Shown here in pieces: positions 1,020 to 22,326 of a DNA stretch of 35,399 nt; position 1 is the first letter of the stretch, and each line of letters opens with the position of its first letter. The stretch spans positions 1-35,399 of the forward strand of contig LNFR01000116.1 in assembly GCA_001567185.1 (NCBI GenBank), read 5' to 3'. Source of the DNA: Bacteroidetes bacterium OLB12. GTDB taxonomy: Bacteria; Bacteroidota; Bacteroidia; Cytophagales; Cyclobacteriaceae. The notes under the pieces are model-generated. The model ran no database searches, was not told the DNA's origin, and saw only the letters and a list, made by a program, of their open reading frames with translations. The position numbers and the translations under genes were made by a program.

Positions 1020-1418
1020 TCAATTAGCTATTTCATCGCATTGCTCAACTACTGGTTTGATAGCATGTTCGATTTTACCCAGCACCGTTTCCATTTGATC
1101 CTGATTATAGTCTTGTCCGTTCTTCTTTGGAACATCATAATCCGAAAGGTCAAAATGCAGATCGGGTTTCAATTGATGATTGGCCAGACAGGCTTTGGAA
1201 CACGCCAGGGGACAGCCATCTACCGCAATTATTTTCCTGCCAGATTTAGCAAGCCGTACCAGCTTCTTCACATTGCCACCAACACCTGCAATGCACGACA
1301 TCTCCGCCAAACCACTGCGATCGATTTTAAGGGCAATGGCATTGGCCATCTGGGCAGCGCTGGAACACCCTGAGCAGGAGTAGATCAGGGGCTTATTGGC
1401 CTCGTTCAGATTTTGCAT
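1020..1418 (-). CDS. DGC-domain putative zinc-binding protein
   Basis: A 132-residue soluble protein of the DGC family (named for its Asp-Gly-Cys motif). The N-terminal segment YSCSGCSSAAQMAN has two Cys; the middle has SCIAGVGG; the signature VDGCPLACSKACL lies at about residues 66-78. The conserved Cys suggest a metal or Fe-S site. The biochemical role of the family is not established, though members tend to occur with hemerythrins and NO/Fe-S stress genes, as here. A copy of the shared operator lies 40 bp upstream (1458-1477), followed by a good Bacteroidota -7 element TACCTTTG (1445-1452 on the minus strand). It is probably monocistronic, since the next minus-strand feature downstream is the tRNA. 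Confidence 0.85.
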   Translation of the reverse strand: MQNLNEANKPLIYSCSGCSSAAQMANAIALKIDRSGLAEMSCIAGVGGNVKKLVRLAKSGRKIIAVDGCPLACSKACLANHQLKPDLHFDLSDYDVPKKNGQDYNQDQMETVLGKIEHAIKPVVEQCDEIAN

Positions 1419-1857: not shown

Positions 1858-2319
1858 TTAAAGCCAAAATTCATCCTTCCACGTTTCGTCAGTATGTAAC
1901 GAGGTGTGTACCTTTTCCAAGGCAAGCCATTGATCAGGTGTTGCGGTTTCCTGAATAACATTGAAGAGTTGCCTTTCTTCAAACCGGATATGCTTCTCCA
2001 ACTCTTCTTCAATCCGATTGAGCGTACGCTCCTTTTCAGGATCGGCTGATGTAAACAACCGGGCCAGCCGCCTGTGATCGGCCAGCGCTTTCTTTACCAT
2101 CACATGCTCGTTTCCAAGCACCGGAAAGAAATCTTTTTCCTCTACTTCGAAATGATGTTGCAGCGAGGTTTTCCAAAACCACTGTGCATAGGCCATCATC
2201 CGGTCTGCATCAATGCCCTTCTTAAAGCCCTGCCTGATTTTCCAACCCAATAATAAGCCGTGATGGTGATCTCTGCTTAGCGGCTGTAGCGCTTTATGTC
2301 GTTTAATCGGCTTTTCCAT
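1858..2319 (-). CDS. Hemerythrin-domain protein
   Basis: A 153-residue protein made of one four-helix hemerythrin domain. Visible di-iron ligands are H18-H20 (RDHHH), H55/H56 with EVEE at 58-61, H82 (ADHRRL) and H110 with E114 (HIRFEERQLF). Such proteins bind O2 or NO, or serve as iron and redox sensors; which of these applies cannot be read from sequence. The ATG shares one base with the stop of the upstream Cys4 protein gene (TGATG), so the two are translationally coupled. They lie in one minus-strand run with DUF488 and ric, consistent with a NO/iron-stress operon. Confidence 0.9.
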   Translation of the reverse strand: MEKPIKRHKALQPLSRDHHHGLLLGWKIRQGFKKGIDADRMMAYAQWFWKTSLQHHFEVEEKDFFPVLGNEHVMVKKALADHRRLARLFTSADPEKERTLNRIEEELEKHIRFEERQLFNVIQETATPDQWLALEKVHTSLHTDETWKDEFWL

Positions 2320-2631: not shown

Positions 2632-2994
2632 CTAACTTGCTGCACGTTTACTTTCTAATCTTCTGGCCAAAACATTCGCATGGTTATGTATCTCGTCTTT
2701 TGCTGCGTAAAGAAGACATAACGGAGTTTTTTCAGCCAGATCCTTCAAGCGATGTACCTCCTCCTCCATGTGATCGAGTTCCCGAAAGTACTTTCTGCTA
2801 AACTCATCAAATCGTTCAGGCTTGTGGCCGAACCATTTTCGCAGCGCTGGCGAAGGAGCAATGTCTTTGTTCCATTCGTTAAGCGCTGCATTTTCTTTCT
2901 TCAACCCTCTCGGCCAAAGCCTGTCCACCAGCATCCGGTAACCATCGGTTTTTGATGGTGGCTCGTAGATCCGCTTTACGGAAATTCGTTTCAT
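2632..2994 (-). CDS. DUF488 family protein (YeaO-like)
   Basis: A 120-residue protein with the DUF488 signature near the N-terminus (KRIYEPPSKTDGYRMLVDRL, then WPRGLKKE) and the middle motif APSPALRKWFGHKPERFDEF. The family is small and of unknown biochemical function, and often occurs in stress or metal-related neighbourhoods. The ATG at 2994 overlaps the stop of ric as TGATG, so I prefer it to the TTG one codon earlier. Co-transcription with ric and the downstream hemerythrin is very likely. Confidence 0.88.
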   Translation of the reverse strand: MKRISVKRIYEPPSKTDGYRMLVDRLWPRGLKKENAALNEWNKDIAPSPALRKWFGHKPERFDEFSRKYFRELDHMEEEVHRLKDLAEKTPLCLLYAAKDEIHNHANVLARRLESKRAAS

Positions 2995-3713
2995 CAATTT
3001 TGCCTTTCCATTTCAATGGCTTTTGGAAAGAGTATGTTGTTTTCCAAATGAATGTGCATGTATAAATCTTCAGCAAACTCTTTCAGCATGGCATACGTAA
3101 CGGTGTAGGTTCGGCAGGCATCGGCCGGAGGCACGAAGTTGCCTGTCAGCTCCGTAATTTTTTGAAAGCGCTCCCCTTCTGCGTTGTGGTCGTGCTTCAT
3201 CATCTCAATCGGATTTTGAACGGTGCCAAAAGGCGGAGTGGATATCGGTTGGTTGGCCGCTTTCTGGCTCACCATTTTACGGATGAATGGGAACAGCACG
3301 AACTCTTCTTTCTTCATGTGTACGGTTAGCTCATCAGATGTTTGATCGAACAATTCGGCCACTTCAAGTAGTTCGGGATGCCGGCCACCATGCACGGTTG
3401 CCACTTTGTGCAGAAAGGGTTTAATCTCCAGAATCCGGTTCTCCACATAGCGGTGATGTTTCTTTTCAATGTAATCGGCCAGTAAATCCAGCGGCCATGA
3501 GTTATAATCGGTGGCCTTGCTTTCATTTTGTTCTACTACTTTTTGCAACGCCTCCACCAGGGCATGGGGTTCAACATCTTTGCGTTCGCAGGCATCGGCA
3601 ATGCTGCGTCCTCCCTTGCAACAAAAGTCGATGCCGTGTGCGTGAAATACGGCTGCGGTACGGTAATCTTGTGCTACCACTTCGCCAACGATATGGTCTG
3701 TTTCAATTTTCAT
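2994..3713 (-). CDS. ric: Iron-sulfur cluster repair di-iron protein (Ric/ScdA/YtfE)
   Basis: 239 residues. The N-terminal ScdA_N/DUF542 domain (1-60) has the hallmark HGIDFCCKGG with C31-C32. It is followed by a hemerythrin-like di-iron domain whose ligands are visible: HH at about 86-87, H with KKEE at about 132, HDH at about 174-176 and HIHLENNILFP at about 220-230. Ric proteins restore Fe-S clusters damaged by NO or oxidants and can supply iron. All key residues are present and the length matches the family. It is the first gene of a run with DUF488, the Cys4 protein and hemerythrin. An operator copy lies about 65 bp upstream (3778-3797), so NO/Fe-S-dependent control through an Rrf2 protein is likely. 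Confidence 0.94.
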   Translation of the reverse strand: MKIETDHIVGEVVAQDYRTAAVFHAHGIDFCCKGGRSIADACERKDVEPHALVEALQKVVEQNESKATDYNSWPLDLLADYIEKKHHRYVENRILEIKPFLHKVATVHGGRHPELLEVAELFDQTSDELTVHMKKEEFVLFPFIRKMVSQKAANQPISTPPFGTVQNPIEMMKHDHNAEGERFQKITELTGNFVPPADACRTYTVTYAMLKEFAEDLYMHIHLENNILFPKAIEMERQN

Positions 3714-3797: not shown

Positions 3798-3884
3798 ATC
3801 AATCTAAAATTTTTTTTATCGTACCAGGATAGTCTTACCCCGATTTTAAACCCCCCCAGGGCTAAGTCGTACACCGTAGTCGTT

Positions 3885-4256
3885 TCAAGCATTTTCTTTA
3901 ACTCCGCTCTTATTTTTTACAAAGCGATCGTGCATCGGACAAGGTTCTGCACTGTTACAGTTGGTTAACCCCAACGCACAACCTGTATATAAGGAGTCGC
4001 CATCAATAGCGAAAACAATATCGCTTGCTTTGATCCGCTTCATCTGAGCGGGATCGATATAAAAACCACCATTAGGCCCGGTAAGCGAATGCACGATGCC
4101 ATGTTTGGTAAGTGCACCCAACACCTTTGCAGTAAATGCCGCTGGCGAGCCCGAGTTCTCCACCACATCGCCAATTTTTACGCGCTGCCCCTCCAACGAT
4201 TGAGTCGCTATATAAATGATGGCTTTAATGCCGTATTCACAGGCTTTTGAAAACAT
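3885..4256 (-). CDS. Rrf2-family regulator (NsrR/IscR-like), C-terminus frameshifted
   Basis: 123 residues as written, starting MFSKACEYGIKAIIYIA. The winged-helix domain is followed by three Cys at about 93, 100 and 106 (C-x6-C-x5-C) in the cluster-binding position of NsrR/IscR-type sensors. It is closely related to the protein at 10818-11276 but lacks that protein's last helix. Dropping one A from the A6 run at 3913-3918 restores it: the frame then reads VKIRAELKKMLETTTVYDLA, matching the family, and stays open to a stop at 3794. So this is either a sequencing error or a C-terminally truncated regulator. An operator copy lies 25 bp upstream, which suggests autoregulation. Candidate master regulator of the NO regulon described here. 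Confidence 0.88.
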   Translation of the reverse strand: MFSKACEYGIKAIIYIATQSLEGQRVKIGDVVENSGSPAAFTAKVLGALTKHGIVHSLTGPNGGFYIDPAQMKRIKASDIVFAIDGDSLYTGCALGLTNCNSAEPCPMHDRFVKNKSGVKENA

Positions 4257-4335: not shown

Positions 4336-4620
4336 TCAGGAAAAAGTTGAATAGATATACCATGAAATGACGCCCATTGCAAGGGTGAGGATGTAGAGGT
4401 AATTGATCCAGGTAACCCCAAGTGATGCTTCCGGCACGGGAAGCCCCGACACTTTTAAAACAATCTGTAAAATGTGATACAGGTACAGCAAGACCACAAT
4501 CGTAAGAATAATAACCACCAGGGAAAGGGCAAAGATTACCGTCATTTGAAATGAATTACTTACGCTCTGAAGAAGAAGCGCATTCAATTCGTAAAAGAAG
4601 AGGTTGTTAAACAGGATCAT
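4336..4620 (-). CDS. Small two-helix membrane protein of the CuA-enzyme operon
   Basis: About 94 residues from the preferred ATG at 4620, which overlaps the SCO gene by 14 bp; a longer reading from 4665 would overlap by 59 bp. It has two hydrophobic stretches (about residues 25-50 and 68-90 from this start) and no metal-binding motif. Its position after subunit II, subunit I and SCO suggests an accessory or assembly subunit of the heme-copper enzyme. I do not recognise the family. Confidence 0.65.
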   Translation of the reverse strand: MILFNNLFFYELNALLLQSVSNSFQMTVIFALSLVVIILTIVVLLYLYHILQIVLKVSGLPVPEASLGVTWINYLYILTLAMGVISWYIYSTFS

Positions 4621-5374
4621 GGCTGATGATGGGTTTAGTGTTCGCAATCTTTTTTGTAGCGCCAACTCGGATAATGGTTTGCAGGATGAGCAGGATACAT
4701 ACTGTAGCTACTGAAGGAATGAGGATTAACAACAAGCCCCAGTTCATACGCCAGGTGCCGCTGGCCGGATCGTAACGGAAACAACTCGTCCAGATGTTTT
4801 CGCCCAGCGTAGAATAAACCGGAACAAACTCGTGTGTTATTTCTCTGAAGAGACGGTTCCACTGATCATTGGAAGGGAGGCCCTCAACCCGTTGCAAAAT
4901 TTTTCCCTCCGTGCTTACAAGAAGCAATAAGGAATTGTGATCATAAAGCTCGCCCAACTTTTTCCATTTCAACCCAAGCGATGCGGCCAGTTCTTCCCGA
5001 CTTTCCGTTGGAAGCACCGCGAATGTCCAGTTGGATGGCGGTGGGTTTACCTTGCTGTATCCTGCAAGCTTACTTAGTGTTTGTGCGTTATCGGTAGAAT
5101 CAAAACTAAGTACCACCATTTGAAACTTATCTTCTGCAATACTTTGCATGGCAAGCTGATCGCGAATTTGTAACACATAGGGGCTGCAAACTCCCGGGCA
5201 CCGGCTATACGCCAGGGTAAGAATCATGGGCTTTTGCGAATACCACGATGAAAGGGGCTGAAGCGAAGATTCCGCTGTTCGCACCGGAACATCCGGAATG
5301 TTCTTCAGCAAATAACCCATCTCATCGGGTTGCTGCGTAGAGAAAAAACTCAGGAGAATAATTGCCCAGCACAT
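4607..5374 (-). CDS. SCO1/SenC/PrrC-type copper chaperone with C-terminal membrane anchor
   Basis: 255 residues. The thioredoxin-like SCO domain carries the copper motif SRCPGVCSPY (C59, C63) and a later His in LYDHNSLLLL (about 144), the three usual copper ligands. The N-terminus is a short hydrophobic signal. Unusually, a long C-terminal extension has a transmembrane helix (about 213-238), so the domain is tethered at both ends or only at the C-terminus. SCO proteins metallate the CuA centre of subunit II, which fits the upstream genes. The start overlaps the end of subunit I by 25 bp, indicating translational coupling. Confidence 0.9.
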   Translation of the reverse strand: MCWAIILLSFFSTQQPDEMGYLLKNIPDVPVRTAESSLQPLSSWYSQKPMILTLAYSRCPGVCSPYVLQIRDQLAMQSIAEDKFQMVVLSFDSTDNAQTLSKLAGYSKVNPPPSNWTFAVLPTESREELAASLGLKWKKLGELYDHNSLLLLVSTEGKILQRVEGLPSNDQWNRLFREITHEFVPVYSTLGENIWTSCFRYDPASGTWRMNWGLLLILIPSVATVCILLILQTIIRVGATKKIANTKPIISHDPV

Positions 5375-6780
5375 CGCCTTGTAAAATCAATGGTATAAAT
5401 AATCATGCCCACGAGGTATAACGAAGCACATACCACGGCCAGTTTGGCCAGGGTAATCCCTTCGCTCACAATTTCATTATACATATCTACCCTGCGCGGA
5501 ACAGAAAGCGCTCCTCCCAAATAAAAGGCAAGGACAAATCCAACTCCACCCACCACCAGCAAACTGAAAATAACTTTGACGAGGCCCGGTGCAATTTTTT
5601 TCTCCCCGATTTCATCGGCAAACCAACTGGTAAAGGCCAGACTGAAAAAGACATTGCCCAACAAATTGTACGTATGAAAATGCGCGGGTACCCATTGTGT
5701 GTTGTGCAACACAAAGTTATTGGCAATAACGGCATCCAGAATAGCACCTACCCCACCAATGGCCCAGAACATCACACCAAAAAAATACAGCAGCGAAGCC
5801 AGGCTCCACTTCATGTTGGAGCGATAAACAGTAGTGAGTACCGAGAAAATGGTAACCACCGCAGCCGGCAAGGGTGCGAACCACGACATGATCTGGCCGA
5901 TGTATTGAAAGGCAACCGGCTGTGCAAAGTCCATATACAGGTGATGGAAGTACGCAAACAGAACAATCAACAACGTGGCATTCCAGGAAATGCCTACATA
6001 CCAGCTTGTTTTGTAATCGGGTTTGCCCGCCATGCGTGGGAACAGCTCATACAGAACCGCCAGACCCAGGTAGAGCATTTCGTTAACGAGCGTGTGACCA
6101 AAAAAGAAGGTGAGGTTTTTCATTAACAACGGATCGCTGGTCATGCCACCGTTCTGTAAGAATTCGAGGTAATACAGTACCAGCAATACAACCGCTGCCA
6201 GGATGCAGGCCGTTACACCAATTAAAGAAACAAACGATATCAGAATAAAAGGAGAGACAGCCGGGCCATCTTTGCCGGCAATGTGATGCCATGCGAGGGC
6301 CTGTGCAATCGAATACTTTTTAAGAATAGATGCCAACATAACCAACGACCACATCAGCCAGCCAACACCTAAAATGGTTAATGCAATCATAAAAAGCAGC
6401 AGGCCATGCTCGGTGCCCTTGGCATAAAAAGGCAGTGGATATAAGAAATACCAACCTGCATGAAACTTGGCAAGTAATGTTGAAATGAGTAGAACTACCA
6501 CCCCTAACACGGTACACACATAGGCAAACACGCTGCCCCACCGGGGTACCTCTACATAGCGGCTCAATATGAATTGAATGCCCGCCATACCGGCCACGAA
6601 CCAAACTCCTGCCATGAGCAACCCGTGCGAGGTCATAAGAATATAAAAATTGAGTGGCCCTATCTCCGTTATTTCGGCCTGCTCCATGCGCATGGTTAAT
6701 CCAAAAGCAATGGCCACCAGAAATACGACAAGCACTGTTAAAAGCCAAAGGAGGGTGGACTTCTTATCAAACGTATTCAT
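5350..6780 (-). CDS. Heme-copper enzyme subunit I without the active-site Tyr (probable CuA-type NO reductase)
   Basis: A 476-residue polytopic membrane protein. Metal ligands by position: H52 (TSHGLLM, low-spin heme), H229 (FFGHTLVNE), H279-H280 (YFHHLYMDF) and H367/H369 (PAHFHTY). So all three CuB His and the heme His are present. In oxygen-reducing B-type (ba3) enzymes the CuB His is followed four residues later by the cross-linked Tyr (HxxxY); here that residue is N233. Loss of this Tyr marks heme-copper NO reductases rather than oxidases. With a CuA subunit II just upstream, the best reading is a CuA-containing NO reductase of the B lineage (bNOR/CuANOR, eNOR, sNOR, gNOR and nNOR are the named groups). 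Which group it joins I cannot tell; an unusual oxidase is not excluded. Confidence 0.85.
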   Translation of the reverse strand: MNTFDKKSTLLWLLTVLVVFLVAIAFGLTMRMEQAEITEIGPLNFYILMTSHGLLMAGVWFVAGMAGIQFILSRYVEVPRWGSVFAYVCTVLGVVVLLISTLLAKFHAGWYFLYPLPFYAKGTEHGLLLFMIALTILGVGWLMWSLVMLASILKKYSIAQALAWHHIAGKDGPAVSPFILISFVSLIGVTACILAAVVLLVLYYLEFLQNGGMTSDPLLMKNLTFFFGHTLVNEMLYLGLAVLYELFPRMAGKPDYKTSWYVGISWNATLLIVLFAYFHHLYMDFAQPVAFQYIGQIMSWFAPLPAAVVTIFSVLTTVYRSNMKWSLASLLYFFGVMFWAIGGVGAILDAVIANNFVLHNTQWVPAHFHTYNLLGNVFFSLAFTSWFADEIGEKKIAPGLVKVIFSLLVVGGVGFVLAFYLGGALSVPRRVDMYNEIVSEGITLAKLAVVCASLYLVGMIIYTIDFTRRCAGQLFS

Positions 6781-6794: not shown

Positions 6795-7346
6795 TTATTC
6801 AACATTAATTTTTGCTATCATGGCCGCGTGTGCCATGCCACAATATTCAAGACATAAAATATCGTATGTACCGCTTTCAGAAAACTTCCAACGCAACCGG
6901 TTTACATAGCCGGGCATGGCCTGAACCTGAGCCTTCAACACACCGTCTTTGTACAAACTGAATCCGTGGCTTACATCAAAACTTGAAACATTAAATTCAA
7001 TTAGCTCATCCTTCTGCACGGTAATTTCAACTCCAGCCGACATGCTGAAATCATCATCGTTGGCAATTGGAAATTTGGAGATGGCAAATGAAAACTGCCG
7101 GGCTACCACAAAAACTTTTTGAGTAGGTTCTTCTGCTGCAAAAAGACGATAAGGTGTTTTTGGCAGGGTGATGCCCAAAACCAACAACACGGTTCCGAAA
7201 GCGATGAAAAAGAAAATGGCTCGTTTCCGGTTTACGTTTTGGGCGCCTCCGCTTTTGCCTGAAGCCTGGAAAACAAGGAAGAATACCAAAACGATAATGA
7301 GAAACATGACGATGAAAAACAGAAAAACTTCTTTTTGTATAGTCAT
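6795..7346 (-). CDS. CuA-containing subunit II of heme-copper enzyme
   Basis: 183 residues. Two N-terminal transmembrane helices (about 6-28 and 43-60) are followed by a periplasmic cupredoxin domain. The CuA ligands are all visible: H127 (VSHGFSLY) and CLEYCGMAHAAM with C165, E167 (backbone position), C169, H173 and M176. The domain takes electrons from a soluble donor such as cytochrome c. It is the first gene of the operon, 14 bp ahead of subunit I. An operator copy lies 110 bp upstream (7457-7476), followed by a weak -7 element TATATTTA. A cupredoxin electron donor is also possible. Confidence 0.9.
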   Translation of the reverse strand: MTIQKEVFLFFIVMFLIIVLVFFLVFQASGKSGGAQNVNRKRAIFFFIAFGTVLLVLGITLPKTPYRLFAAEEPTQKVFVVARQFSFAISKFPIANDDDFSMSAGVEITVQKDELIEFNVSSFDVSHGFSLYKDGVLKAQVQAMPGYVNRLRWKFSESGTYDILCLEYCGMAHAAMIAKINVE

Positions 7347-8787: not shown

Positions 8788-8876
8788 ACACCAATATAAT
8801 ACCGAAATTGCCGAAATCCGTAGGCGAACCCATTAAGTTTTTACTTACAACTGTGCGGTAGTTGCCTTTTTAAAAT

Positions 8877-8896
8877 AAAAGATAAATTTATCCTTT
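8877..8896. promoter_or_regulatory. Rrf2-type operator, most symmetric copy, between transporter and 608-aa gene
   Basis: AAAAGATAAATTTATCCTTT contains the perfect 12-bp palindrome GATAAATTTATC. On the plus strand a -7 element TACCTTTG follows at 8905-8912, 8 nt after the site, so bound protein would block the -33 region of the 608-aa gene's promoter. Confidence 0.7.
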
Positions 8897-8935
8897 ATTA
8901 GTGATACCTTTGCCCTCACGTTTAACATAAATATC

Positions 8936-10762
8936 ATGCAGCCTGCTATGCCACACTCCTTTCATATCCCGGTTATGGGATTGGCCTATACCATCGACAC
9001 ACCCATAAAAGTGGCGCGCTTTGGTATTAATTCGGTTATTTCCATTGTTCAGGATACGCTGATCGAAAAAATGCGCAGTTATTATTACCCGCAAATTGGA
9101 GAACCTTACCAGGCCATCAGCAATAAGGAAGATGATTACCGTGCCAAACGTATTACCGACTATCTGAATTTGGTGAACCGGATTGTAAACGATCAAATCG
9201 AAAAACTGAAAGATCAGGACTTTGAACCCGGTTCTGATATTTGCAAATACTTTGAAATGCTGCCGGATGGCTCCGATCTGAAAAACATCTTTTATGAGAT
9301 GCAAAGCCTGGCTAACGCAGAAGACAAACAACAATTGCAGAACTGGCTGCGAGAACAAATCAGGCCGGGAAGCATTGATGTAAACATTATGACGAAGCTG
9401 GACAAAAACAATCACGATCAACAAGGCCAGGCAATTGAAGATGGCTCGGATGCGGTTGCCGCCTTGCGTGGGTATGTGCAAAGCAACCTCAGCAATTCAT
9501 CCATTGTGCTATCGGCCGGTATGAATCCGCGGCTCTTTAGTTATATGGAAAAGCGGAGTGAATTTGATGCGGATAGTTATGGCGAATTTGAAAAGAAGAT
9601 CGTGATCAAAGTTTCGGATTACCGCTCGGCCTTAATACAAGGAAAAATGCTGGCCAAGAAAGGACTTTGGGTGAGCGAATTCAGAATTGAATCTGGTTTA
9701 AACTGTGGAGGCCATGCTTTCGCTACGGATGGATTTTTGATAGGCCCCATTCTGGAAGACTTCAAAACGAAGCGGGAAGAGTTGACCTCTACCCTATTTG
9801 CTGCATACAACGAATCGTTGAAAGCAAAAGGAAAAACTCCTTTTGAAAAACCCCACACCATCAAGATTACGGTGCAGGGTGGCATTGGCACCGAAGCGGA
9901 AGACAGGCTACTGCGCGAACACTATGGCGTAGATGGCACCGGATGGGGAACACCATTTTTACTTGTACCCGAAGCCACCACGGTGGATGACCATACCCTT
10001 CTATTGCTTAGCCAGGCGAAGGAAAGCGATGTAATCCTTAGCAAAAAATCTCCGCTAGGGGTGCGCTTCCATTACCTCAAAGGCACAACAGCCGAAACCG
10101 AACGCTTGAACCGGATTGAAAAAGGCAAGCCGGGCAGTCCGTGTACCGAAAAGTTTTTAGTGAACAATACCGAATTTGGCCCCGAGCCTATTTGTACCGC
10201 TTCGCGCACGTATCAAAAGAAAAAAATTGAGCAACTTAAATCGCTGGCGTTGCCGGATGACGAATACAACCGCCAGTTGAACGATGTGTTGGATAAAGAG
10301 TGTCTTTGTGTGGGCCTGAGTAACGCGGCCGTTAAAAAATATGAAGTGAAACCGTTTAAAGGACTGAGCGGCATTAACATTTGCCCAGGACCAAACATCG
10401 CTTACTTCAGCGAAGTGGTGTCGCTTCAAAAAATGGTTGATCACATCTATGGTCGTGTTAATATTTTACCCGGCAACAACCGTCCGCACATGTTCATCAA
10501 AGAACTGATGATCTACGTGGACTACTGGAAAGAACTGGTTGCCGAAGCAAAAGAAGCGATCGACAATAAAAAGAAGTCGTACATCGAAAACTTCCATCAT
10601 AACCTGCTGGAAGGCATTGCGCACTATCGCACTCTTACGGACAAGATCAACAGCGAGGTCACCACTTTGAAAGACAAACTTCACGAAGGGTTGATTACGG
10701 CCGAAACGCAATTGGAGGAAACATTCAGGAAGTTTATGGAAAAAACCATGGTGCCGGCCTGA
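8936..10762 (+). CDS. Cys-rich protein resembling nitronate monooxygenase TIM barrels
   Basis: 608 residues, soluble, no signal peptide. Several segments resemble the nitronate monooxygenase/2-nitropropane dioxygenase barrel: an N-terminal IPVMGLAYTIDTPIKVARFG, then ESGLNCGGHAF (254-262, like the family's GxEAGGH), then ITVQGGIGTEAEDRLL (311-326) and GTGWGTPFLLVPEA (334-347, like the usual GTRFLxxxES). Unlike that family it has long insertions and a C-terminal part with Cys at 403, 420, 456, 458 and 483 (PCTEKF, PICTAS, ECLCVG, NICPGPN), suggesting an Fe-S or other metal site. The last 100 residues are helical and charged. Substrate unknown. A strong operator plus -7 element lies 24-59 bp upstream. 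Flavin-dependent reduction of a nitrogen or sulfur compound would be a guess. Confidence 0.75.
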   Translation: MQPAMPHSFHIPVMGLAYTIDTPIKVARFGINSVISIVQDTLIEKMRSYYYPQIGEPYQAISNKEDDYRAKRITDYLNLVNRIVNDQIEKLKDQDFEPGSDICKYFEMLPDGSDLKNIFYEMQSLANAEDKQQLQNWLREQIRPGSIDVNIMTKLDKNNHDQQGQAIEDGSDAVAALRGYVQSNLSNSSIVLSAGMNPRLFSYMEKRSEFDADSYGEFEKKIVIKVSDYRSALIQGKMLAKKGLWVSEFRIESGLNCGGHAFATDGFLIGPILEDFKTKREELTSTLFAAYNESLKAKGKTPFEKPHTIKITVQGGIGTEAEDRLLREHYGVDGTGWGTPFLLVPEATTVDDHTLLLLSQAKESDVILSKKSPLGVRFHYLKGTTAETERLNRIEKGKPGSPCTEKFLVNNTEFGPEPICTASRTYQKKKIEQLKSLALPDDEYNRQLNDVLDKECLCVGLSNAAVKKYEVKPFKGLSGINICPGPNIAYFSEVVSLQKMVDHIYGRVNILPGNNRPHMFIKELMIYVDYWKELVAEAKEAIDNKKKSYIENFHHNLLEGIAHYRTLTDKINSEVTTLKDKLHEGLITAETQLEETFRKFMEKTMVPA

Positions 10763-10817: not shown

Positions 10818-11276
10818 ATGTTTTCCAAAGCCTGTGAATATGCCCTTCGGGCCGTGCTCTACATTTCACTTAAAAGCGTGAATGGTTCGCGCATGAGCAT
10901 CCCTGAAATTGCCAAAGAGATTGATGCTCCGCTGGCATTCACCGGAAAAATTCTTCAAACGCTGGCGCGTGAAGGATTGATCTCTTCCATCAAAGGCCCC
11001 AACGGTGGGTTTTACATTGACCCAAAGTCCAAACCTGTAACCCTGCGCGACATTGTGCATGCCATTGATGGCAGCGATGATGTGCTGCATACGTGTACCC
11101 TGGGTTTAAAAGAATGCTCGGATAAATTTCCCTGCCCCATCCACGGAGAAATAAAAGCCTATAAAGAGCGTTTGCGTAAAGTGATGCGCGAAACCACTGT
11201 TCAAAGTCTGGCCGGTGACCTGACCAAAGGCCGTACGTTCCTGAAGAATGTAAAGCCAAAAAAATCAAGAGCTTAA
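10818..11276 (+). CDS. Rrf2-family regulator (NsrR/IscR-like), intact
   Basis: 152 residues. The winged-helix N-terminus (MFSKACEYALRAVLYIS) is followed by GPNGGFYIDP and three Cys at 93, 100 and 106 (C-x6-C-x5-C, TCTLGLKECSDKFPC). The C-terminal helix ERLRKVMRETTVQSLA, missing from the paralogue at 3885-4256, is present here. The Cys are placed to hold an Fe-S cluster that senses NO or iron status. It follows the 608-aa gene by 55 bp and may share its transcript; no operator copy was found directly before it. Its end overlaps the convergent pterin-synthase gene by 12 bp. Either this protein or its paralogue probably binds the repeated operator. Confidence 0.92.
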   Translation: MFSKACEYALRAVLYISLKSVNGSRMSIPEIAKEIDAPLAFTGKILQTLAREGLISSIKGPNGGFYIDPKSKPVTLRDIVHAIDGSDDVLHTCTLGLKECSDKFPCPIHGEIKAYKERLRKVMRETTVQSLAGDLTKGRTFLKNVKPKKSRA

Positions 11277-11690
11277 CCACTCGGCATACGAATCGGCTGT
11301 CTCCCACAACCTGAGTGAAATAAGTTGGATGTGCCCGGGAAGAACTTTAGTAATTTGTTCCTGGATAAAGATCAGCAGATTTTCAGCTGAAGGTTCATAA
11401 TCAAAAATCAACAAGGCCTCGCCCGGAGGTGTGCTATTGTCTGCAATGTACTTTCGGGAAAGAACAAGTTTGTGATCAAGTTTTGAAATGACCGCTTCGT
11501 TCACAAGGGTTTTTAGTTCTTTAAAATCAAAAATGATTCCCGTGCCTTCAATATACCCTAAGCCTGAATTACTTCCGGCAATGCAAACATGCAATTCATA
11601 CGAATGGCCATGGATGTGGGCGCATGGTCCCGCATATCCATGAATAGCATGTGCCGTTTCAAAACGAAAAATTTTGGTAATGCCAATCAT
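11265..11690 (-). CDS. 6-pyruvoyltetrahydropterin synthase/QueD homologue
   Basis: 141 residues with the whole PTPS/QueD signature: H14 (ETAHAI), then C23 and H27/H29 in CAHIHGHSYE (zinc His and catalytic Cys), LDHKLVL at 71-77 and E120 in LWETADSYAEW. QueD makes 6-carboxy-tetrahydropterin for queuosine; PTPS relatives make biopterin or related cofactors. The start overlaps the stop of the NorB-like gene as ATGA, so it is translated from the same message as the cytochrome c/NorB-like pair. That is an odd place for a queuosine gene and suggests a pterin role linked to that complex, or simple hitchhiking. Length is slightly above the QueD norm. Confidence 0.88.
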   Translation of the reverse strand: MIGITKIFRFETAHAIHGYAGPCAHIHGHSYELHVCIAGSNSGLGYIEGTGIIFDFKELKTLVNEAVISKLDHKLVLSRKYIADNSTPPGEALLIFDYEPSAENLLIFIQEQITKVLPGHIQLISLRLWETADSYAEWLSS

Positions 11691-13066
11691 TCAATTTGAT
11701 AGACAGGAGTTTTCCAACCAGCAACAGGTTGTTTACGCGGCTTAAAATTGCACGCTACTATGTTGCGCAGCAGCGGATAAACAATTGTTGCAAAGCCCAT
11801 GAGCAAGACCACACCCGAAGCTGCAAAAGCAATAAAGTATGGCCGGAGACTATTCATCATCACTGCAAAAGGAACGCCCTCGTTGCTCATTTGCCATTGG
11901 GCGCGTTGGATGCCCGCCACTAGCAAAGAAGTAAGAAATACAACCAGTGCTCCGTTCACCAGCCAGCCAGCCCGATAAACCTGAACGCGGTAGGCTTCCA
12001 TGCTTCGGCAGGTATTTCCAAGCAAGTCGAAAGAAACGGCCAGCAGCAACATGGTGTTGATGCCGATGGTGGTACCCATTACATGTGCTACGGTTATATA
12101 GGTTCCGTGCGTGTACACATTGATTGCCGGTATAGAAATTAGAATAGCTAAAAACAGGTTTAAGAAAATCCAAACATCGGCAATCATTAAGAAGCGGTAG
12201 GAAAGTCCGAATTGCGTTTTCTGCATGGCGGTAACTGAATCCTTCCACTTGTAGATGAGGCGGCCGAGTATCAACAGTTCGGTCATGCTTACCAGGTAAC
12301 CTATGTGCCGGATGGCAGGAGTTACCGGAAGCGTATAGATGTGATGGCTCCAGTTAAACAGGAGGTTAAAGAATCCCAGAAAGAAAAGTGCAAACGCGGT
12401 GGCGGATCGTGCATACGGTTTATCCTGACTGATTTTTTCCATCAGGTAAATTCCCGCTCCGTACACCAGCATGTTCCAGCATCCAACCATAGAGCCGTAT
12501 GATTTCCATTGCACGGTCATGTCCAGCACAATGTCTTTTCTGAAATGAGAAAAAATCCAGAGGTATGATTCAGAGAAGGTGAAGAGAAAGCCAAAAGCAC
12601 CCGTGAGCCACATCCAGATATATACTGGTTGTTGCCGCAGGGTTTTAACAGACTTGACAACCTGTATAATAAAGAGTATCCAACCCGCCAAAAGGAAGAG
12701 AGCCAGTACCGGAGGAAACTCCCAGTACTCCCTGCCGCCAAAAAAGCCCAGGGCATATCCGGAAAGAATGAGGATGGCACCCGTTACAAAAAAAATCAAA
12801 TGAAAACGCGACAACCAACGGCTGATTTTAACCTGTGCATATTCACGCAGGTAAAGCACCACGCCCCCGGTGGCAGAAAATAAAATCCAGAAAACCACCG
12901 AGCTCACATGAAAGGGTCTGGTTTTTTCAAATGACAGATACTGCTTAAGAAAACCGGGCAACATGTATTGAAACGCACCAATGGCTCCGAACATCATACC
13001 GATGAGCATGAGTACCAGGCCACTGAAAATTAACCATTTGGGTGCCTCAACTTTATTTGTATTCAA
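11687..13066 (-). CDS. NorB-like heme protein with eroded active site
   Basis: A 459-residue protein with about twelve hydrophobic helices, alignable along its length to the cytochrome c NO reductase large subunit. Conserved: H53 (PFHVSS, heme b), GREYWEFP (111-118), H241-H242 (NWSHHIYTLP, two FeB His), E263, and H320/H328 (THGTYITVAH; H328 is the heme b3 position). Changed: the usual WVVHLWVEGVWE segment reads WKSYGSMVGCWN, so the third FeB His becomes Y190, the FeB Glu becomes V194 and the next Glu N198. The usual HGH has become HVM, putting M330 where the second heme b His should be. It may therefore not reduce NO in the normal way. Start is TTG at 13066, overlapping the cytochrome c gene. 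Confidence 0.85.
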   Translation of the reverse strand: MNTNKVEAPKWLIFSGLVLMLIGMMFGAIGAFQYMLPGFLKQYLSFEKTRPFHVSSVVFWILFSATGGVVLYLREYAQVKISRWLSRFHLIFFVTGAILILSGYALGFFGGREYWEFPPVLALFLLAGWILFIIQVVKSVKTLRQQPVYIWMWLTGAFGFLFTFSESYLWIFSHFRKDIVLDMTVQWKSYGSMVGCWNMLVYGAGIYLMEKISQDKPYARSATAFALFFLGFFNLLFNWSHHIYTLPVTPAIRHIGYLVSMTELLILGRLIYKWKDSVTAMQKTQFGLSYRFLMIADVWIFLNLFLAILISIPAINVYTHGTYITVAHVMGTTIGINTMLLLAVSFDLLGNTCRSMEAYRVQVYRAGWLVNGALVVFLTSLLVAGIQRAQWQMSNEGVPFAVMMNSLRPYFIAFAASGVVLLMGFATIVYPLLRNIVACNFKPRKQPVAGWKTPVYQIE

Positions 13067-13461: not shown

Positions 13462-13494
13462 TTGTTGTGTATTCGGCACAAAAATATTACAAAT

Positions 13495-13514
13495 AAAGGA
13501 TAATTTTGTCTTTT
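13495..13514. promoter_or_regulatory. Rrf2-type operator between cytochrome c and nadA
   Basis: AAAGGATAATTTTGTCTTTT sits in the 72-bp gap between two divergent genes, 19 bp before nadA and 33 bp before the cytochrome c start. On the minus strand a -7 element TATTTTTG (13479-13486) follows; on the plus strand TAATTTTG lies inside the site itself. Confidence 0.65.
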
Positions 13515-13533
13515 AATTGTAAACGAATAAAAA

Positions 13534-17294: not shown

Positions 17295-17308
17295 AGTAGA
17301 AAAATAAT

Positions 17309-17328: not shown

Positions 17329-17340
17329 TTAAGAAATAAT

Positions 17341-17360
17341 AAAGGATTAATTTATCTTTT
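17341..17360. promoter_or_regulatory. Rrf2-type operator proximal to the NO-dismutase-like gene
   Basis: AAAGGATTAATTTATCTTTT is the second of two sites in one divergent promoter region, centred 32 bp from the first (three helical turns). A -7 element TAGCTTTG follows at 17363-17370, so a bound repressor would cover the -33/spacer region. Confidence 0.65.
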
Positions 17361-17392
17361 ATTAGCTTTGAGAATCCCAAATATCAATAACC

Positions 17393-19747
17393 ATGAATAA
17401 GCCAGGATCCATTGAATATCTGCTTAACCCCAAAAACTGGTGGTTACCCCTGTTGATTATTTTTATTATCAGTATTACCGGAGTTTTTATGATGGGCTTG
17501 CATACCTACACCGATGCGCCCCCCGTTCCCAACTTCATTACCCATGATTCCAAACCTGTTTATAGTAAGGAAGACATTCAGAACGGCCAGGTTGTATTTC
17601 AGAAGTATGCACTCATGGAGTATGGCAGCGTATTTGGCGATGGGGCTTATCGCGGCCCGGATTATTCGGCCGAAGCGCTGCATCGCACAGCCACTGGTAT
17701 GCAGGAATATTATAGCAAACAACACGCAGGCGATGGCGATTTAGCCCGTTTGGGTATTTCCGAAAAAGTTAAGGCGGAGATCAAAGCGAATACATATAAT
17801 AAAGACAAAAACTCCGTCATCCTTACAGATGCACACGCCTATGCTGCGTTGCAGTTAGTAGATTACTACAATCAGGTGTTCACCAATCCCGAACACGAAC
17901 AGGCATTCTCACCAGCCGGTTATCTGACCAACGAAAAAGAAATTCGCGATCTCAGTGCCTTCTTCTTCTGGAGCGGCTGGGTTTGCGGTGTAGAACGTCC
18001 GGGTAAAACGTACAGCTACACACACAATTGGCCGTATGATCCAACAGCAGGAAACACACCCAGTGCTGCGGTGGTTATCTGGAGTATTGTGGGCTCATTG
18101 GGGTTGGTATTTGGCCTTGGCATTGTGTTGTATTACCACGGTAAGCTGGACAAACTGGATGACGCTGCCTTTACCAACAAAGCCGCTCCCCTCATGACGA
18201 AAACAGGCGTGAGCAATTTTAATCCTACAGCCATTCAGAAAGCTACTTATAAATTTTTCTACGCGGCCATTCTACTTTTTCTTGTTCAGGTGCTGGCCGG
18301 TGTTCTTACCGTGCACGATTTTGTAGGCTTTGTCAATTTTTTCGGATTTAACATTGCCGAAGCCCTTCCCATCACCATTACCCGAAGCTGGCACGTGCAA
18401 CTCTCCCTGTTGTGGATTTCAGCATGCTGGATTGGTGCTTCGTTTTTTGTGATGCCAATGCTTTCATCCAGGCAACCGGCCAATCAGTTAAAGCTCATCA
18501 ACATCATGTTTGCGCTTATTGTCGTATTGGTGGCCGGCTCATTCGTGGGTATGTTCATCGGACCAAAAGGTATTAGTGGTGATGCATGGATCTGGATCGG
18601 CCATCAGGGATGGGAATACCTGGAGCCCGCCAAGGTATGGCAAGGACTACTCTATATAGTTTTTGGATTTTGGGCAACCATACTTTATCGTGGGCTCAAG
18701 CCTGTGATGACGTTGAAAAAACCCTGGGCACTTCCCAACTGGTTGGTGTATGCCACCGTAAGTATTCTGGTGCTGCTTTGCTCGGGGCTAATGTTTACTC
18801 CGAAAACAAATTTTGTGATTGCCGATTTCTGGCGATGGATGGTGATCCACATGTGGGCCGAAGCTTTTTTTGAAGTATTCACTACCGTGTTGATTGGTTA
18901 CTTTATGGTGCTTATGGGACTGGTGAGTGAACGCGCTGCCACCCGTGTGATTTACCTGGCTTGTCTTCTCTTTTTAGGATCGGGTTTGTTAGGTATATCG
19001 CATAACTTCTATTGGAATGCCAAACCCGTATTCACTATGGCGTTGGGTTCGGTGTTCTCTACATTACAAGTAGTTCCGCTCATTTTGCTTACACTCGAAG
19101 CCTGGCGGTTTGCCAAACTTCCGGGTCAACTGGAAAATGGAAAGAACGGCAAAGTTACGTTCGGATTTCCCGGAGTATTTCTCTTTTTGATTGGTGTAAA
19201 CTTCTGGAACTTTTTTGGTGCCGGGGTTATGGGCTTTATCATCAACCTGCCCATTGCTAATTATTATGAACACGGTACTTATCTCACGGTAAATCACGGC
19301 CACGCTGCCTTGATGGGCGTGTATGGAAACTTATCCATAGCCGGAGCTTTGTTCTGCTGCCAGTTGCTCTTTAAACCAGTTGCCTGGAATACCCGGTTAA
19401 TAAAAATTTCCTTCTGGTCAATCAATATCGGTTTGCTGTTGATGGTTGTACTGGATTTGTTCCCGGCAGGTATTCTTCAATTTATGGCGGTGGTAGAAGA
19501 AGGACTTTGGTTTGCACGTAGCAGTGCGTTTATTGACAGCAACGTGTTTCAATCGCTTACCTGGCTGCGCATCATAGGCGGCTCCATCTTTGTGCTTGGT
19601 GGTGTTATACCACTTACCTGGTTTATTGTTTCCAAATGGAACATGTTGAAGCCTGTTAAGAAAATCAGTCCGGATACCCTGGCTGCTAATAATGGCCACG
19701 CACAACACAATCATCAGGAGCAAGAACTGGAACTTGAAAAGCTTTAG
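17393..19747 (+). CDS. nod: Putative nitric oxide dismutase (qNOR-related)
   Basis: 784 residues with the qNOR layout: an N-terminal helix, a periplasmic cytochrome c-like domain without a CxxCH motif, then about twelve helices. Kept: heme ligands H334 (RSWHVQL), H635 and H637 (VNHGHAAL), FeB ligands H486 and E490 (HMWAEAFFE) and H537. Changed: the FeB His pair HH reads H537-N538 (GISHNFYW). The quinol-site motif HYTVEGxGF reads HDFVGFVNF, keeping H308 but losing Glu (G312), and the C-terminal GD reads GG (729-730). Loss of quinol residues plus His-to-Asn at FeB is what I recall for the NO dismutases of Methylomirabilis, which make N2 and O2 from NO without outside electrons. An atypical qNOR is the alternative. 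The frame is intact. The tail (765-784) is rich in His and Glu. It carries its own operator and heads an operon with a Ric paralogue and nrdJ. Confidence 0.8.
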   Translation: MNKPGSIEYLLNPKNWWLPLLIIFIISITGVFMMGLHTYTDAPPVPNFITHDSKPVYSKEDIQNGQVVFQKYALMEYGSVFGDGAYRGPDYSAEALHRTATGMQEYYSKQHAGDGDLARLGISEKVKAEIKANTYNKDKNSVILTDAHAYAALQLVDYYNQVFTNPEHEQAFSPAGYLTNEKEIRDLSAFFFWSGWVCGVERPGKTYSYTHNWPYDPTAGNTPSAAVVIWSIVGSLGLVFGLGIVLYYHGKLDKLDDAAFTNKAAPLMTKTGVSNFNPTAIQKATYKFFYAAILLFLVQVLAGVLTVHDFVGFVNFFGFNIAEALPITITRSWHVQLSLLWISACWIGASFFVMPMLSSRQPANQLKLINIMFALIVVLVAGSFVGMFIGPKGISGDAWIWIGHQGWEYLEPAKVWQGLLYIVFGFWATILYRGLKPVMTLKKPWALPNWLVYATVSILVLLCSGLMFTPKTNFVIADFWRWMVIHMWAEAFFEVFTTVLIGYFMVLMGLVSERAATRVIYLACLLFLGSGLLGISHNFYWNAKPVFTMALGSVFSTLQVVPLILLTLEAWRFAKLPGQLENGKNGKVTFGFPGVFLFLIGVNFWNFFGAGVMGFIINLPIANYYEHGTYLTVNHGHAALMGVYGNLSIAGALFCCQLLFKPVAWNTRLIKISFWSINIGLLLMVVLDLFPAGILQFMAVVEEGLWFARSSAFIDSNVFQSLTWLRIIGGSIFVLGGVIPLTWFIVSKWNMLKPVKKISPDTLAANNGHAQHNHQEQELELEKL

Positions 19748-19752: not shown

Positions 19753-20439
19753 ATGACGGTAACCGATATTCTGCGATTAGAACCACAAAGCATTCACATC
19801 ATAAAAAAATACAACCTTGATGCCTGTGATGCCGAAACTTTTTTATTTGAAGATGCGTGCCGTACGCATGCGGTAGATGCCCGGTGTGTAAAGAATGAAT
19901 TAATTGAACTAAGGATCTCACTAAAACAAGCTAACGAGTCGTTTGCTCAATTGCTTGATGGAATTCTGCAACAGCATGAAGTCATTAAGAATACTCTTTC
20001 CAACATTAAGCATGCATTGCACCTTGCTGTTCAGCAACAGACAGACTTTCAGGAGAAACTCCTCACCATTAAGAATAAATTTGATGTGCTGTCCGAAACG
20101 CTGGACATACATCTCTACAAAGAGGAAATGATTTTATTCCCTGAGTTTGTTAAGCTTTGGAATAATCAAAAAAATCAGAGAGAGCGTCTTCCTCTATTTC
20201 GAATGATGTACCCCATTGAAGGATTGGAAGATGAACATCAATTGGCAAGAACCATTCTCATCGACATGCGATCGATTATCCGGTATGGTAAAATACCAAA
20301 AGGAGTTGGTGTTTACTATGAATATGTATGTCAGGAACTGGAATCCTTCGAAAAACAAATGATCAACTTAATGGATCAGGAAAATCAATTGCTCTTTCCG
20401 AAAGCGTTGGAGCTGGAACAAACCCTCACACACAGTTGA
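19753..20439 (+). CDS. Degenerate Ric-like di-iron protein paralogue
   Basis: 228 residues, starting 5 bp after the dismutase-like gene, so co-translated. The layout follows Ric (short N-terminal domain, then four hemerythrin-like helices), but key residues are lost. The CC pair of the N-terminal domain reads LDACDAE (one Cys left, C25); the motif ending HLENNILFP reads MDQENQLLFP, so the last His is D218; and the HDH pair is reduced to DEH (H162). HLYKEEMILFP (H120) is kept. At best part of a di-iron site remains. A role as a partner, iron donor or assembly factor for the neighbouring NO enzyme is inferred from position only. Confidence 0.75.
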   Translation: MTVTDILRLEPQSIHIIKKYNLDACDAETFLFEDACRTHAVDARCVKNELIELRISLKQANESFAQLLDGILQQHEVIKNTLSNIKHALHLAVQQQTDFQEKLLTIKNKFDVLSETLDIHLYKEEMILFPEFVKLWNNQKNQRERLPLFRMMYPIEGLEDEHQLARTILIDMRSIIRYGKIPKGVGVYYEYVCQELESFEKQMINLMDQENQLLFPKALELEQTLTHS

Positions 20440-20475: not shown

Positions 20476-22326
20476 ATGGAACTTAATCAGGAAATCCTCA
20501 GCGACATTGTCATTTACATGAAATATGCGCGCTATCTCCCCGAATTGCAACGCAGAGAATTATGGCCGGAAATATGCGGGCGGTATGAAGACATGATGGT
20601 GCAGAAGTATCCACACCTGAAAGAGGAGATTGCCGAGAACATGCAATGGGTACTCCAGAAGAAAATCCTCCCTTCCATGCGTGCCATGCAGTTTGCCGGT
20701 GCACCTATTATTAAAAATAACAGTCGCATTTACAATTGTGCCTACATGCCGGTGGATGATATTCGTGCATTTTCGGAAGCCATGTTCTTGTTGCTGGGTG
20801 GAACCGGTGTGGGTTATTCCGTGCAAACGCATCACGTAGCAAAATTACCTCCCATTCAAAAAGCGGAGAAGACACGCAGGTTTCTGATTGGCGACAGCCT
20901 GGAAGGATGGGCCGACTCCATCAAGATGATCATGAAAGCCTACTTCGGGCAAAGCGATGCCATGCCGCTCTTTGATTACTCTGACATTCGCCCGAAGGGT
21001 GCACGACTGGTAACAGCAGGTGGAAAAGCACCGGGGCCCGAACCCTTAAAAGTTTGCCATGCGCACGTTACGGCCTTGCTCGATCGAAAACAAAATGGCG
21101 AAAGGCTTACTCCGTTGGAATGCCACGACATGATGTGCCACATTGCTAACGCAGTACTGGCCGGTGGTATTCGAAGATCAGCCATGATCTCGCTGTTCTC
21201 TCCGGAAGACGAAGAGATGCTCACTTGCAAATTCGGCAACTGGTGGGAGCTGAACGAACAACGTGGTCGTGCAAACAACTCGGCCGTACTGTCGCGCGAA
21301 TACACCACCGAAAAAGAATTTTTCGATCTCTGGAAAAAAATTGAACTATCAGGCGCAGGTGAGCCTGGATTTTATTTCAGCAACCACCCCGACTGGGGAA
21401 CAAACCCGTGTTGTGAAATCGCGCTGAAGCCGTTTCAGTTTTGTAACCTGTGCGAAGTAAACGTATCGGATGTAGAGACGCAGGAAGAATTGAATGCGCG
21501 TGCCCGCGCAGCCGGATTTTTTGGTACCCTGCAAGCCGGCTTTACCGATTTGCACTACCTGCGCGAAGTGTGGAAAAAAACCACTGAGCACGATGCCTTG
21601 ATTGGTGTAGGCATGACGGGCATTGCCAGTGGTAGGGTAGCCAAACTCGATCTCAAAGAAGCGGCTGATGAAGTTAAGCACATCAACAATATTGTGTCGG
21701 CAAAAATCAACATCGAGTTTGCGGCTCGTTGCACCACCATTAAGCCCTCGGGCACCAGCTCGCTCGTGTTGGGTACATCATCGGGCATTCATGCCTGGCA
21801 CAATGATTATTATCTGCGCAGAATGCGCATCGGAAAAAATGAAGCGCTGTACGAATACCTGCGTATCAACCATCCCGAGTTACTGGAAGATGACATGTTG
21901 AACAGCAAGCAGGCTATTATCTGTATTCCACAAATGGCTCCGGAAGGCAGTATTCTGCGCACCGAAGATGTGATGGACATGCTGGAGCGTGTAAAACAAT
22001 TTAACATTGAATGGGTACGCAACGGCTTCCGCCAAGGCTACAATGCTAACAACGTATCGGCCACCATTTCCATCCGCGATGATGAATGGGAGAAAGTAGG
22101 CCGCTGGATGTGGGACAACAAGTCGAGCTACAACGGATTGAGCGTGTTGCCGTATGATAATGGTAATTACAAGCAACCTCCGTTTGAAGATATCAGTCGC
22201 GAGAAGTTCCTGGAGTTGGAGCATTCACTCCATGCCATCGACCTGTCGAATGTATATGAGCCCGATGATGCCACCGACTTACAGGCAGAAGCCGCCTGTG
22301 CAGGTGGTGCTTGTGTGATTCAGTAG
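20476..22326 (+). CDS. nrdJ: Adenosylcobalamin-dependent ribonucleotide reductase (class II)
   Basis: 616 residues. Characteristic segments: RIYNCAYMPVDD (C88), FLLLGGTGVGYSVQ, the active-site region NPCCEIALKPFQFCNLCEVN (C323, C326), IKPSGTSSLVLGTSSGIHAW, and a C-terminal CAGGACVIQ whose Cys pair would re-reduce the active site. No ATP-cone is visible. Class II enzymes make the radical from coenzyme B12 and need no oxygen; the length is nearer monomeric RTPR-type than long NrdJ forms. It lies 36 bp behind the Ric paralogue in the nod transcript, so DNA precursors would be made where class I enzymes are starved of oxygen or poisoned by NO. A hairpin follows (22339-22382). Confidence 0.9.
   Translation: MELNQEILSDIVIYMKYARYLPELQRRELWPEICGRYEDMMVQKYPHLKEEIAENMQWVLQKKILPSMRAMQFAGAPIIKNNSRIYNCAYMPVDDIRAFSEAMFLLLGGTGVGYSVQTHHVAKLPPIQKAEKTRRFLIGDSLEGWADSIKMIMKAYFGQSDAMPLFDYSDIRPKGARLVTAGGKAPGPEPLKVCHAHVTALLDRKQNGERLTPLECHDMMCHIANAVLAGGIRRSAMISLFSPEDEEMLTCKFGNWWELNEQRGRANNSAVLSREYTTEKEFFDLWKKIELSGAGEPGFYFSNHPDWGTNPCCEIALKPFQFCNLCEVNVSDVETQEELNARARAAGFFGTLQAGFTDLHYLREVWKKTTEHDALIGVGMTGIASGRVAKLDLKEAADEVKHINNIVSAKINIEFAARCTTIKPSGTSSLVLGTSSGIHAWHNDYYLRRMRIGKNEALYEYLRINHPELLEDDMLNSKQAIICIPQMAPEGSILRTEDVMDMLERVKQFNIEWVRNGFRQGYNANNVSATISIRDDEWEKVGRWMWDNKSSYNGLSVLPYDNGNYKQPPFEDISREKFLELEHSLHAIDLSNVYEPDDATDLQAEAACAGGACVIQ

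Follow-up and report, generated by a model that had tools for sequence, protein, structure and literature searches.

Can a bacterium of the Bacteroidota carry an enzyme that turns nitric oxide (NO) into N2 and O2, and what would such an enzyme do for it? The question is raised by a gene, here called nod, on contig LNFR01000116.1 of Bacteroidetes bacterium OLB12 (assembly GCA_001567185.1), analysed over positions 1 to 35,399, the whole of this stretch being referred to as the window. Its product was originally predicted, from the DNA letters alone, to be a putative NO dismutase (NOD), and this held: the published sequence marks of the family were found in it, a tree placed it with NODs of the genus Muricauda, and its changes were absent from all 34 homologues having the residues of quinol-dependent NO reductases (qNORs). 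We consider it nearly certain that nod belongs to the putative NOD family, because of the family marks, the linked residue states in 127 homologues and the tree. A true NOD would belong to the small number of biological O2 sources that need no light, and what NODs do in organisms other than methanotrophs is treated in print as an open question.

Residues and phylogeny of the nod product

17393..19747, plus strand: nod, putative NO dismutase, 784 amino acids, ATG start, qNOR fold

The nod reading frame is real and complete in the window, and its product matched a COX1 domain and a NorB cytochrome-c-like domain in Pfam, with none of the NCBIfam models matching at an E-value of 0.001. The best match among solved proteins was the Geobacillus qNOR (3ayf; E 1.3e-160), and identity to the solved qNORs was 29-36% in structural alignments. 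The AlphaFold model of the protein, with a mean predicted local distance difference test score (pLDDT) of 76, likewise had 3ayf as its top structural match (template modelling score 0.83, E 1.1e-40); no geometry was drawn from this model because residues 308-311 and 542-545, which lie within or beside both the quinol and the active site, had pLDDT values below 50.

In the alignment to 3ayf, the quinol-site residues H328 and F336 correspond to H308 and F316, E332 is replaced by G312 and Asp746 by Gly ('RIIGGS' versus 'RAVPDT'), the loss of the site being partial since His328 and Phe336 are kept. At FeB, H508, E512 and H559 are retained as H486, E490 and H537, with the same spacing of 51 residues from the first to the last, and H560 is replaced by N538; H334, H635 and H637, the heme ligands, all lie opposite histidines. 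The original prediction had drawn the likeness to quinol NO reductases, the HH to H537-N538 change, the Gly at the quinol Glu, the C-terminal GD to GG change and all of the retained ligands in the same way. Its list of three linked changes was correct as far as it went and missed a fourth, at the catalytic centre, where E581 of 3ayf becomes Q559.

The marks published for putative NODs are a His to Asn change at a metal site, a Glu to Gln change near the catalytic centre and the loss of the quinol site (Ettwig 2012, PMC3413370), and the rule concerning Asn was repeated later (mSphere 2023, PMC10286720). All three were found in nod, as N538 in place of the FeB His560, as Q559, and as G312 together with the replacement of Asp746; that the Glu meant in PMC3413370 is E581 is our own reading. 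His328, Glu332, Phe336 and Asp746 (Geobacillus numbering) are the quinol-site residues counted as lost. The two traits named in the original prediction, a lost quinol site and Asn at FeB, do match the 2012 marks, the former only in part. The nod product shares Asn, Gln, the lost quinol site and the otherwise conserved histidines with the NODs of that paper, namely those of Ca. Methylomirabilis oxyfera (DAMO_2434/2437), strain HdN1 and Muricauda ruestringensis, and differs from them in keeping the quinol-site His328 as H308. Neither the Glu332/Asp746 pair of a qNOR quinol site nor its catalytic His560/Glu581 pair is present.

The four changes proved to be linked among 127 homologues (139 rows less 12 repeats of the same gene). 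At positions 560, 581, 332 and 746, 93 of them had Asn, Gln, not Glu and not Asp, two of these rows ending before column 746, and 34 had His, Glu, Glu and Asp; mixed states were not encountered. Most NOD-state rows were retrieved with the NOD-derived patterns ADFWRW[MC] and HMW[VA]EAF, which exclude all four state columns, and the genome-contig scan contributed the best 80 of 241 matches, nearly all labelled Bacteroidota. Judged on these sequences, the pattern is not chance. Whether HN and the Gly substitutions also occur among NO reductases, a check named in the original prediction, was answered by the 34 qNOR-state proteins (qNORs by sequence, of which the solved ones are the proven enzymes), none of which had Asn, Gln or a lost quinol Glu/Asp. 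The heme ligands and three FeB ligands were kept in every tabulated homologue, save for one His to Tyr at 637, and the quinol-site His328 in 39 of the 93 NOD-state rows. The same active-site state was seen in the NODs of Sediminibacterium and Algoriphagus metagenome-assembled genomes (MAGs) (Ruff 2023, PMC10264387) and in Bacteroidota loci L064-L143.

A quick tree of 58 rows, built with seven trait columns removed and accompanied by long-branch warnings, comprised 41 NOD-state rows, 14 of the 34 qNOR-state rows, two qNORs from the PDB and one row from IMG/VR (L062). The 41 NOD-state rows fell on one side of a branch and the 16 qNOR rows on the other, with a support of 90 (100 when L062 is counted with the NODs) in the SH-like approximate likelihood ratio test (SH-aLRT); in this tree, one of the checks proposed at the outset, the window's protein stood with NODs of the genus Muricauda and apart from the qNORs. 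On the NOD side, which includes Muricauda sp., Algoriphagus, Hydrotalea and Ferruginibacter, the sequences of Hydrotalea (L124) and Ferruginibacter (L128) group with the window's (16 rows, SH-aLRT 100), unlike those of Algoriphagus and Muricauda, which form other groups, and the closest homologue and tree neighbour (L003) is 77% identical.

The common fold and the level of identity would suit a quinol NO reductase of the ordinary kind, in which the substitutions are neutral. The heme ligands and three FeB ligands are shared with the qNORs of Geobacillus (3ayf) and Achromobacter (6qq5). The differences from both, Asn for His560, Gln for Glu581 and Gly for Glu332 and Asp746, are however the four substitutions at the quinol and active sites that never appeared in mixed form among the 127 homologues, and the clade is separate in the tree. 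We rejected this explanation on the linked residues and the tree, and hold it to be scarcely credible.

Several homologues deserve separate mention. A qNOR-state protein (L037, from genome G663; 724 bits) scored between the NODs and the other Bacteroidota qNORs and joined the NOD side of the tree with a support of only 8, as a possible intermediate or through a long-branch effect. NOD-state genes on contigs labelled as other phyla, Bacteriovoracaceae UBA6200 (L115) and a Thermoanaerobaculia MAG (L086), fell within Bacteroidota NOD groups, which may reflect transfer or misbinning. Distant NOD-like genes were present on two IMG/VR contigs called viral (L062 and L063; 50.7 and 231 kb), with the quinol-site His/Glu replaced (MDFANPF, MDFADPF); L062 ends before the catalytic part and L063 is without the middle of the protein, so that what they cover excludes the Asn/Gln columns, and when viral sequences were scanned with the piece of L062, the sole match was L062 itself. 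A plasmid-borne NOD was also considered and dropped, as a tblastn search of 72,556 plasmid records gave 319 with a match, all below 60% identity, the best listed being 38.2%.

The probable nod operon, its predicted operator and an sNOR-type reductase

17340..17361: palindromic operator AAGGATTAATTTATCTTTTA, a near-palindrome, 31 bp before the nod ATG
17308-17329: weaker second operator copy before nod, 3 mismatches
19753..20439, plus strand: hemerythrin/RIC-like iron-sulfur (Fe-S) repair protein, 5 bp after the nod stop; RIC equivalog 86.5 bits, below the cut-off of 204.7
20476..22326, plus strand: adenosylcobalamin-dependent (class II) ribonucleotide reductase-like protein, 616 amino acids, 36 bp after the RIC-like gene; TIGR02505 1.1e-74, 251.9 bits, below the cut-off of 340
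8876..8897: operator between the divergent genes 7726-8787 (SLAC1-type, sNOR genes follow) and 8936-10762 (an Rrf2 gene follows)
13494..13515: operator copy 18 bp before NadA (13534), also upstream of a heme-copper-like gene at 11687-13066
1457-1476: operator copy upstream of a DGC gene
3779-3798: weak operator-like site upstream of a RIC/ScdA gene, 3 mismatches
3885..4256, minus strand: Rrf2-family regulator
10818..11276, plus strand: Rrf2-family regulator; exceeds the cut-off for the Rrf2 superfamily, but scores 31.6 bits with the NsrR model (cut-off 182)

The nod gene likely heads an operon with the Fe-S-repair-like gene and the B12-type ribonucleotide reductase, behind a palindromic operator, just downstream of which TAGCTTTG resembles what we take to be the Bacteroidota -7 box. 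The operator pattern AAGGAYWAATTWRTCYTTTA was composed by eye from upstream regions of the window and of relatives. It matched the window 10 times at six sites (up to 3 mismatches, both strands of the palindrome counted) against 0.07 expected, and the 3.6 Mb genome seven times at four sites (up to 2 mismatches), all on this contig, against two for the backwards control. These four sites lie before the DGC gene, in the gap between the SLAC1/sNOR genes and the genes for a 608-amino-acid protein and Rrf2, before NadA and before nod; nosZ, on another contig, is without one. Of the 39 distinct relatives that were scanned (19 loci plus L119-L143, with L064-L118 excluded), 14 had a similar site close upstream of nod, at 27-63 bp from the start in 12 of the 14; in L127 and L128 it falls after the nod start chosen by script and before the start of the tblastn match. 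Because the pattern was drawn from them, the operator in those relatives and at the window's nod are not independent tests; fairer ones are the window's remaining sites and the genome-wide count.

We infer that the Rrf2 proteins read the operator and that NO is the signal. An Rrf2-family gene was found in 61 of 100 nod loci, at a median of 146 bp upstream and on the same strand in about half; among these loci are the window, with its Rrf2 genes at a distance of 6-13 kb, and several repeats of one genome.

Upstream of nod, a minus-strand cluster combines RIC/ScdA, Rrf2, hemerythrin, DGC and SCO1-like genes with a two-subunit heme-copper enzyme.

5350..6780, minus strand: heme-copper subunit I, sNOR-type; GHTLVN, Asn at the oxygen-reductase Tyr position
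6795..7346, minus strand: CuA-type subunit II (COX2), presumed sNOR partner
4607..5374, minus strand: SCO1/SenC-like protein, weak (20.5 bits against a cut-off of 22.8)
2994..3713, minus strand: RIC/ScdA iron-sulfur repair di-iron protein, TIGR03652 above cut-off
1858..2319, minus strand: hemerythrin-domain protein
1020..1418, minus strand: DGC-domain protein, operator copy upstream
7726-8787, divergent from 8936-10762: SLAC1-type gene, followed by the sNOR genes

Subunit I reads GHTLVN where the A-type oxidase of the same genome has GHPEVY, and the Asn was kept in all five aligned members, that of the window included. Both features expected of an sNOR, Asn for the oxidase Tyr and a cupredoxin subunit II, are thus present in the pair 5350-6780 and 6795-7346. 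The enzyme is called sNOR-type, with no exact subfamily, because this Asn is the residue of CuANOR (bNOR) as well as of sNOR (PMC8756737, Table A4).

Proposed NO disposal and competing explanations

The source genome (G000; 3.6 Mb, 118 contigs, 92.5% complete) has one nod-type gene and a nosZ (C72) followed by genes that read as nos genes. For O2 reduction it has an A-type subunit I (HPEVY) and a partial CcoN-like subunit. It yielded neither nirK nor nrfA (the latter sought in all 23 NOD genomes described below), absences that are weak because the genome is 92% complete; nirS had no match in 64 panel genomes, where the controls were silent as well, and nothing was concluded from it. With nosZ and O2 reductases present and nirK and nrfA not found, this looks like a bacterium that respires O2 and N2O and encounters external NO.

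Our favoured reading is that nod disposes of NO by the NOD reaction under the control of NO. Without a proper quinol site, the enzyme would take no electrons from the quinol pool; two NO molecules would bind at the heme b3/FeB pair and be rearranged to N2 and O2, providing an electron-free disposal of NO from outside. An Rrf2-type repressor, relieved by NO and acting on the palindrome before nod, would switch it on together with the Fe-S repair proteins, the oxygen-independent ribonucleotide reductase and the sNOR-type NO reductase, and the A-type and cbb3-type oxidases of the cell would use up the O2 released. Taken as a whole, we would give this statement slightly better than even chances; O2 production by nod is putative.

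The operator, Rrf2 and sNOR setting, the presence of NosZ and the failure to find nirK and nrfA favour NO disposal over oxygenic denitrification. A NOD that feeds an oxygenase in oxygenic denitrification, as proposed for Methylomirabilis, would equally carry the family marks, and an sNOR accompanies NOD in both genomes: Ca. Methylomirabilis oxyfera encodes qNOR, sNOR and gNOR beside its NODs and, according to PMC6094997, no NosZ. The source genome differs in having nosZ and in yielding no nirK; together with its sNOR and the unfound nrfA, weak as absences are, this makes that role improbable. More improbable still is that nod has become an NO-binding sensor or store of the regulon and no longer turns NO over, which its regulon setting would suit: the heme and three FeB ligands are kept throughout the tabulated homologues apart from the Tyr at 637, suggesting a catalytic binuclear site.

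The distribution of nod was surveyed in two samples. Homologues at E 1e-30 or better were found in 46 of 295 genomes of the family sample, 23 of NOD type (residues read in the window and in a further 20 loci, one of which is partial, with two genomes typed by fragment identity), 21 of qNOR type (typed by identity, residues read in 9) and two unclassified fragments; at this threshold no genome of the family sample had both types. In the phylum sample, 38 of 395 genomes had a homologue at 1e-60, and among the 30 loci retained, the NOD state was seen in the window plus 4 others and the qNOR state in 25. A panel of 64 genomes was then taken from the family sample, with the 23 NOD genomes, the 21 of qNOR type and 20 with neither gene (10 from the same genus and 10 more taken from the top of the list, not a random choice), fragments G029 and G086 being excluded.

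A second NO reductase was recognised in 10 of the 23 NOD genomes (sNOR in 4, cNOR in 6), so that nod is not simply a stand-in for an NO reductase in those genomes. The sNOR was present in 5 of the 64 panel genomes, all of the window's genus and one without nod, and in a sister genome (G261) nod is immediately followed by the sNOR pair in the same orientation. In five others (G085, G039, G126, G114 and G053), cNOR norB is 4.4-5.4 kb and nirK 7.4-8.6 kb from nod, with a norC-norB-norQ-norD order in G085 and G126 (NorB recognised by its HLWVE motif, the other names by sequence reading). Besides Rrf2, the families recurring in the 100 nod loci were RIC/hemerythrin-type (20), NrdG (18), NrdJ (16) and NrdD (15), and the nos genes nosF (14), nosD (12), nosY (12) and nosZ (9); the loci span 3.6-20 kb (the window 35 kb), and families for which Pfam and NCBIfam were not run were named from the sequence of a representative. 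The oxygen-independent ribonucleotide reductases beside nod are class III NrdD/NrdG in some lineages and class II NrdJ in others (examples of such loci are L154, L162 and L166; names by reading).

The main competing explanation is that NODs of the Bacteroidota clade are NO reductases of an unusual kind, which make N2O, receive electrons by a route other than the quinol site and feed the NosZ encoded nearby. In its favour, nosZ is present in 21 of the 23 NOD genomes, against 16 of the 21 qNOR genomes and 10 of the 20 with neither gene (NOD versus neither, Fisher p 0.005), lies within 30 kb of nod in 10 of 21 genomes with both, much as of qNOR in 8 of 16, and occurs in 12 of the 13 NOD genomes without a recognised second NO reductase. 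Such an enzyme would nonetheless have lost the quinol Glu/Asp and the catalytic Glu, as did all NOD-state rows reaching these columns, and 10 of the 23 genomes carry an sNOR or cNOR in addition, in five of them with the cNOR norB a few kilobases from nod. We judge it unlikely, if the most serious of the alternatives.

Several observations nevertheless speak against NO disposal by dismutation. To date no NOD has been purified, according to PMC13386854, and dismutation is for that reason not established for any member of the family, while the tree was built without the M. oxyfera and HdN1 sequences. The proximity of nod to nosZ, resembling that of qNOR, would suit an N2O-producing enzyme in nod's place as well, and 13 of the 23 NOD genomes have no recognised sNOR, cNOR or qNOR. 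No operator was seen before nod in 25 of the 39 relatives scanned, and the pairing of Rrf2 with the operator is inferred only. Class III ribonucleotide reductase is an oxygen-sensitive enzyme, and its genes (NrdD in 15 and NrdG in 18 of the 100 loci) are odd company for an oxygen maker.

NODs in Bacteroidota have already been published, from Muricauda in 2012, from Sediminibacterium and Algoriphagus in 2023 and from more genomes in 2026 (PMC3413370, PMC10264387, PMC13386854). The idea of NO detoxification is not new either, since PMC13386854, which examined nod neighbourhoods and, citing another paper, describes NsrR alongside nod in Cecembia calidifontis, suggests it. What the present analysis adds is the gene setting of nod, its operon, operator, regulators and sNOR; a literature search, with subscription papers mostly outside its reach, found no description of the operator or of nod-sNOR and nod-cNOR linkage. 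In the window this setting is concrete and can be tested: an operator is predicted, there are two candidates for the regulator, and a separate NO reductase is encoded near nod. Relatives with nod belong to the cultured genera Algoriphagus, Muricauda and Hydrotalea. More tentatively, and with somewhat less than even confidence, we propose that the Bacteroidota NOD is an NO-triggered, electron-free safety valve and not an enzyme of oxygenic respiration. It would belong to a compact regulon, run by a repressor and its operator, that also contains an NO reductase of sNOR or cNOR type, genes for Fe-S repair, a ribonucleotide reductase that works without oxygen and, in many relatives, genes for N2O reduction, and by which bacteria without a nitrite reductase of their own could destroy the NO of their neighbours with a little O2 as by-product.

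Other genes of the window

8936..10762, plus strand: 608-amino-acid protein, model resembling FMN enoyl reductases of the DfnA/PfaD group
11687..13066, minus strand: third heme-copper-like protein, 459 amino acids, weak CcoN/NorB match, no recognisable FeB His/Glu motif

The 608-amino-acid protein had no Pfam, NCBIfam or PADLOC match at E 0.001; its family occurs in 22 of the 100 nod loci, and its model (pLDDT 75) resembles DfnA-ER and PfaD. The third heme-copper-like protein keeps an HH pair and a heme-type His, and has QWKSYG[SA] where the CcoN of its own genome has QWWYGHNAV with a metal-ligand His; this motif was found in all eight aligned sequences of the type, the window's included, and the family in 13 loci.

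A tryptophanase-like gene at 15920-17294 (minus strand) may be broken, as the match of the open reading frame 16119-17294 to the family model ends at about residue 355-360 of 457-467, and positions 15920-16420 are open in a different frame; it adjoins a full-length tyrosine phenol-lyase-like gene at 14472-15857. Further away, an AbiEii-like nucleotidyltransferase and a protein matching Csa3-type models, at 29164-29799 and 32381-32701 (both minus strand), are possible toxin-antitoxin or regulatory genes.

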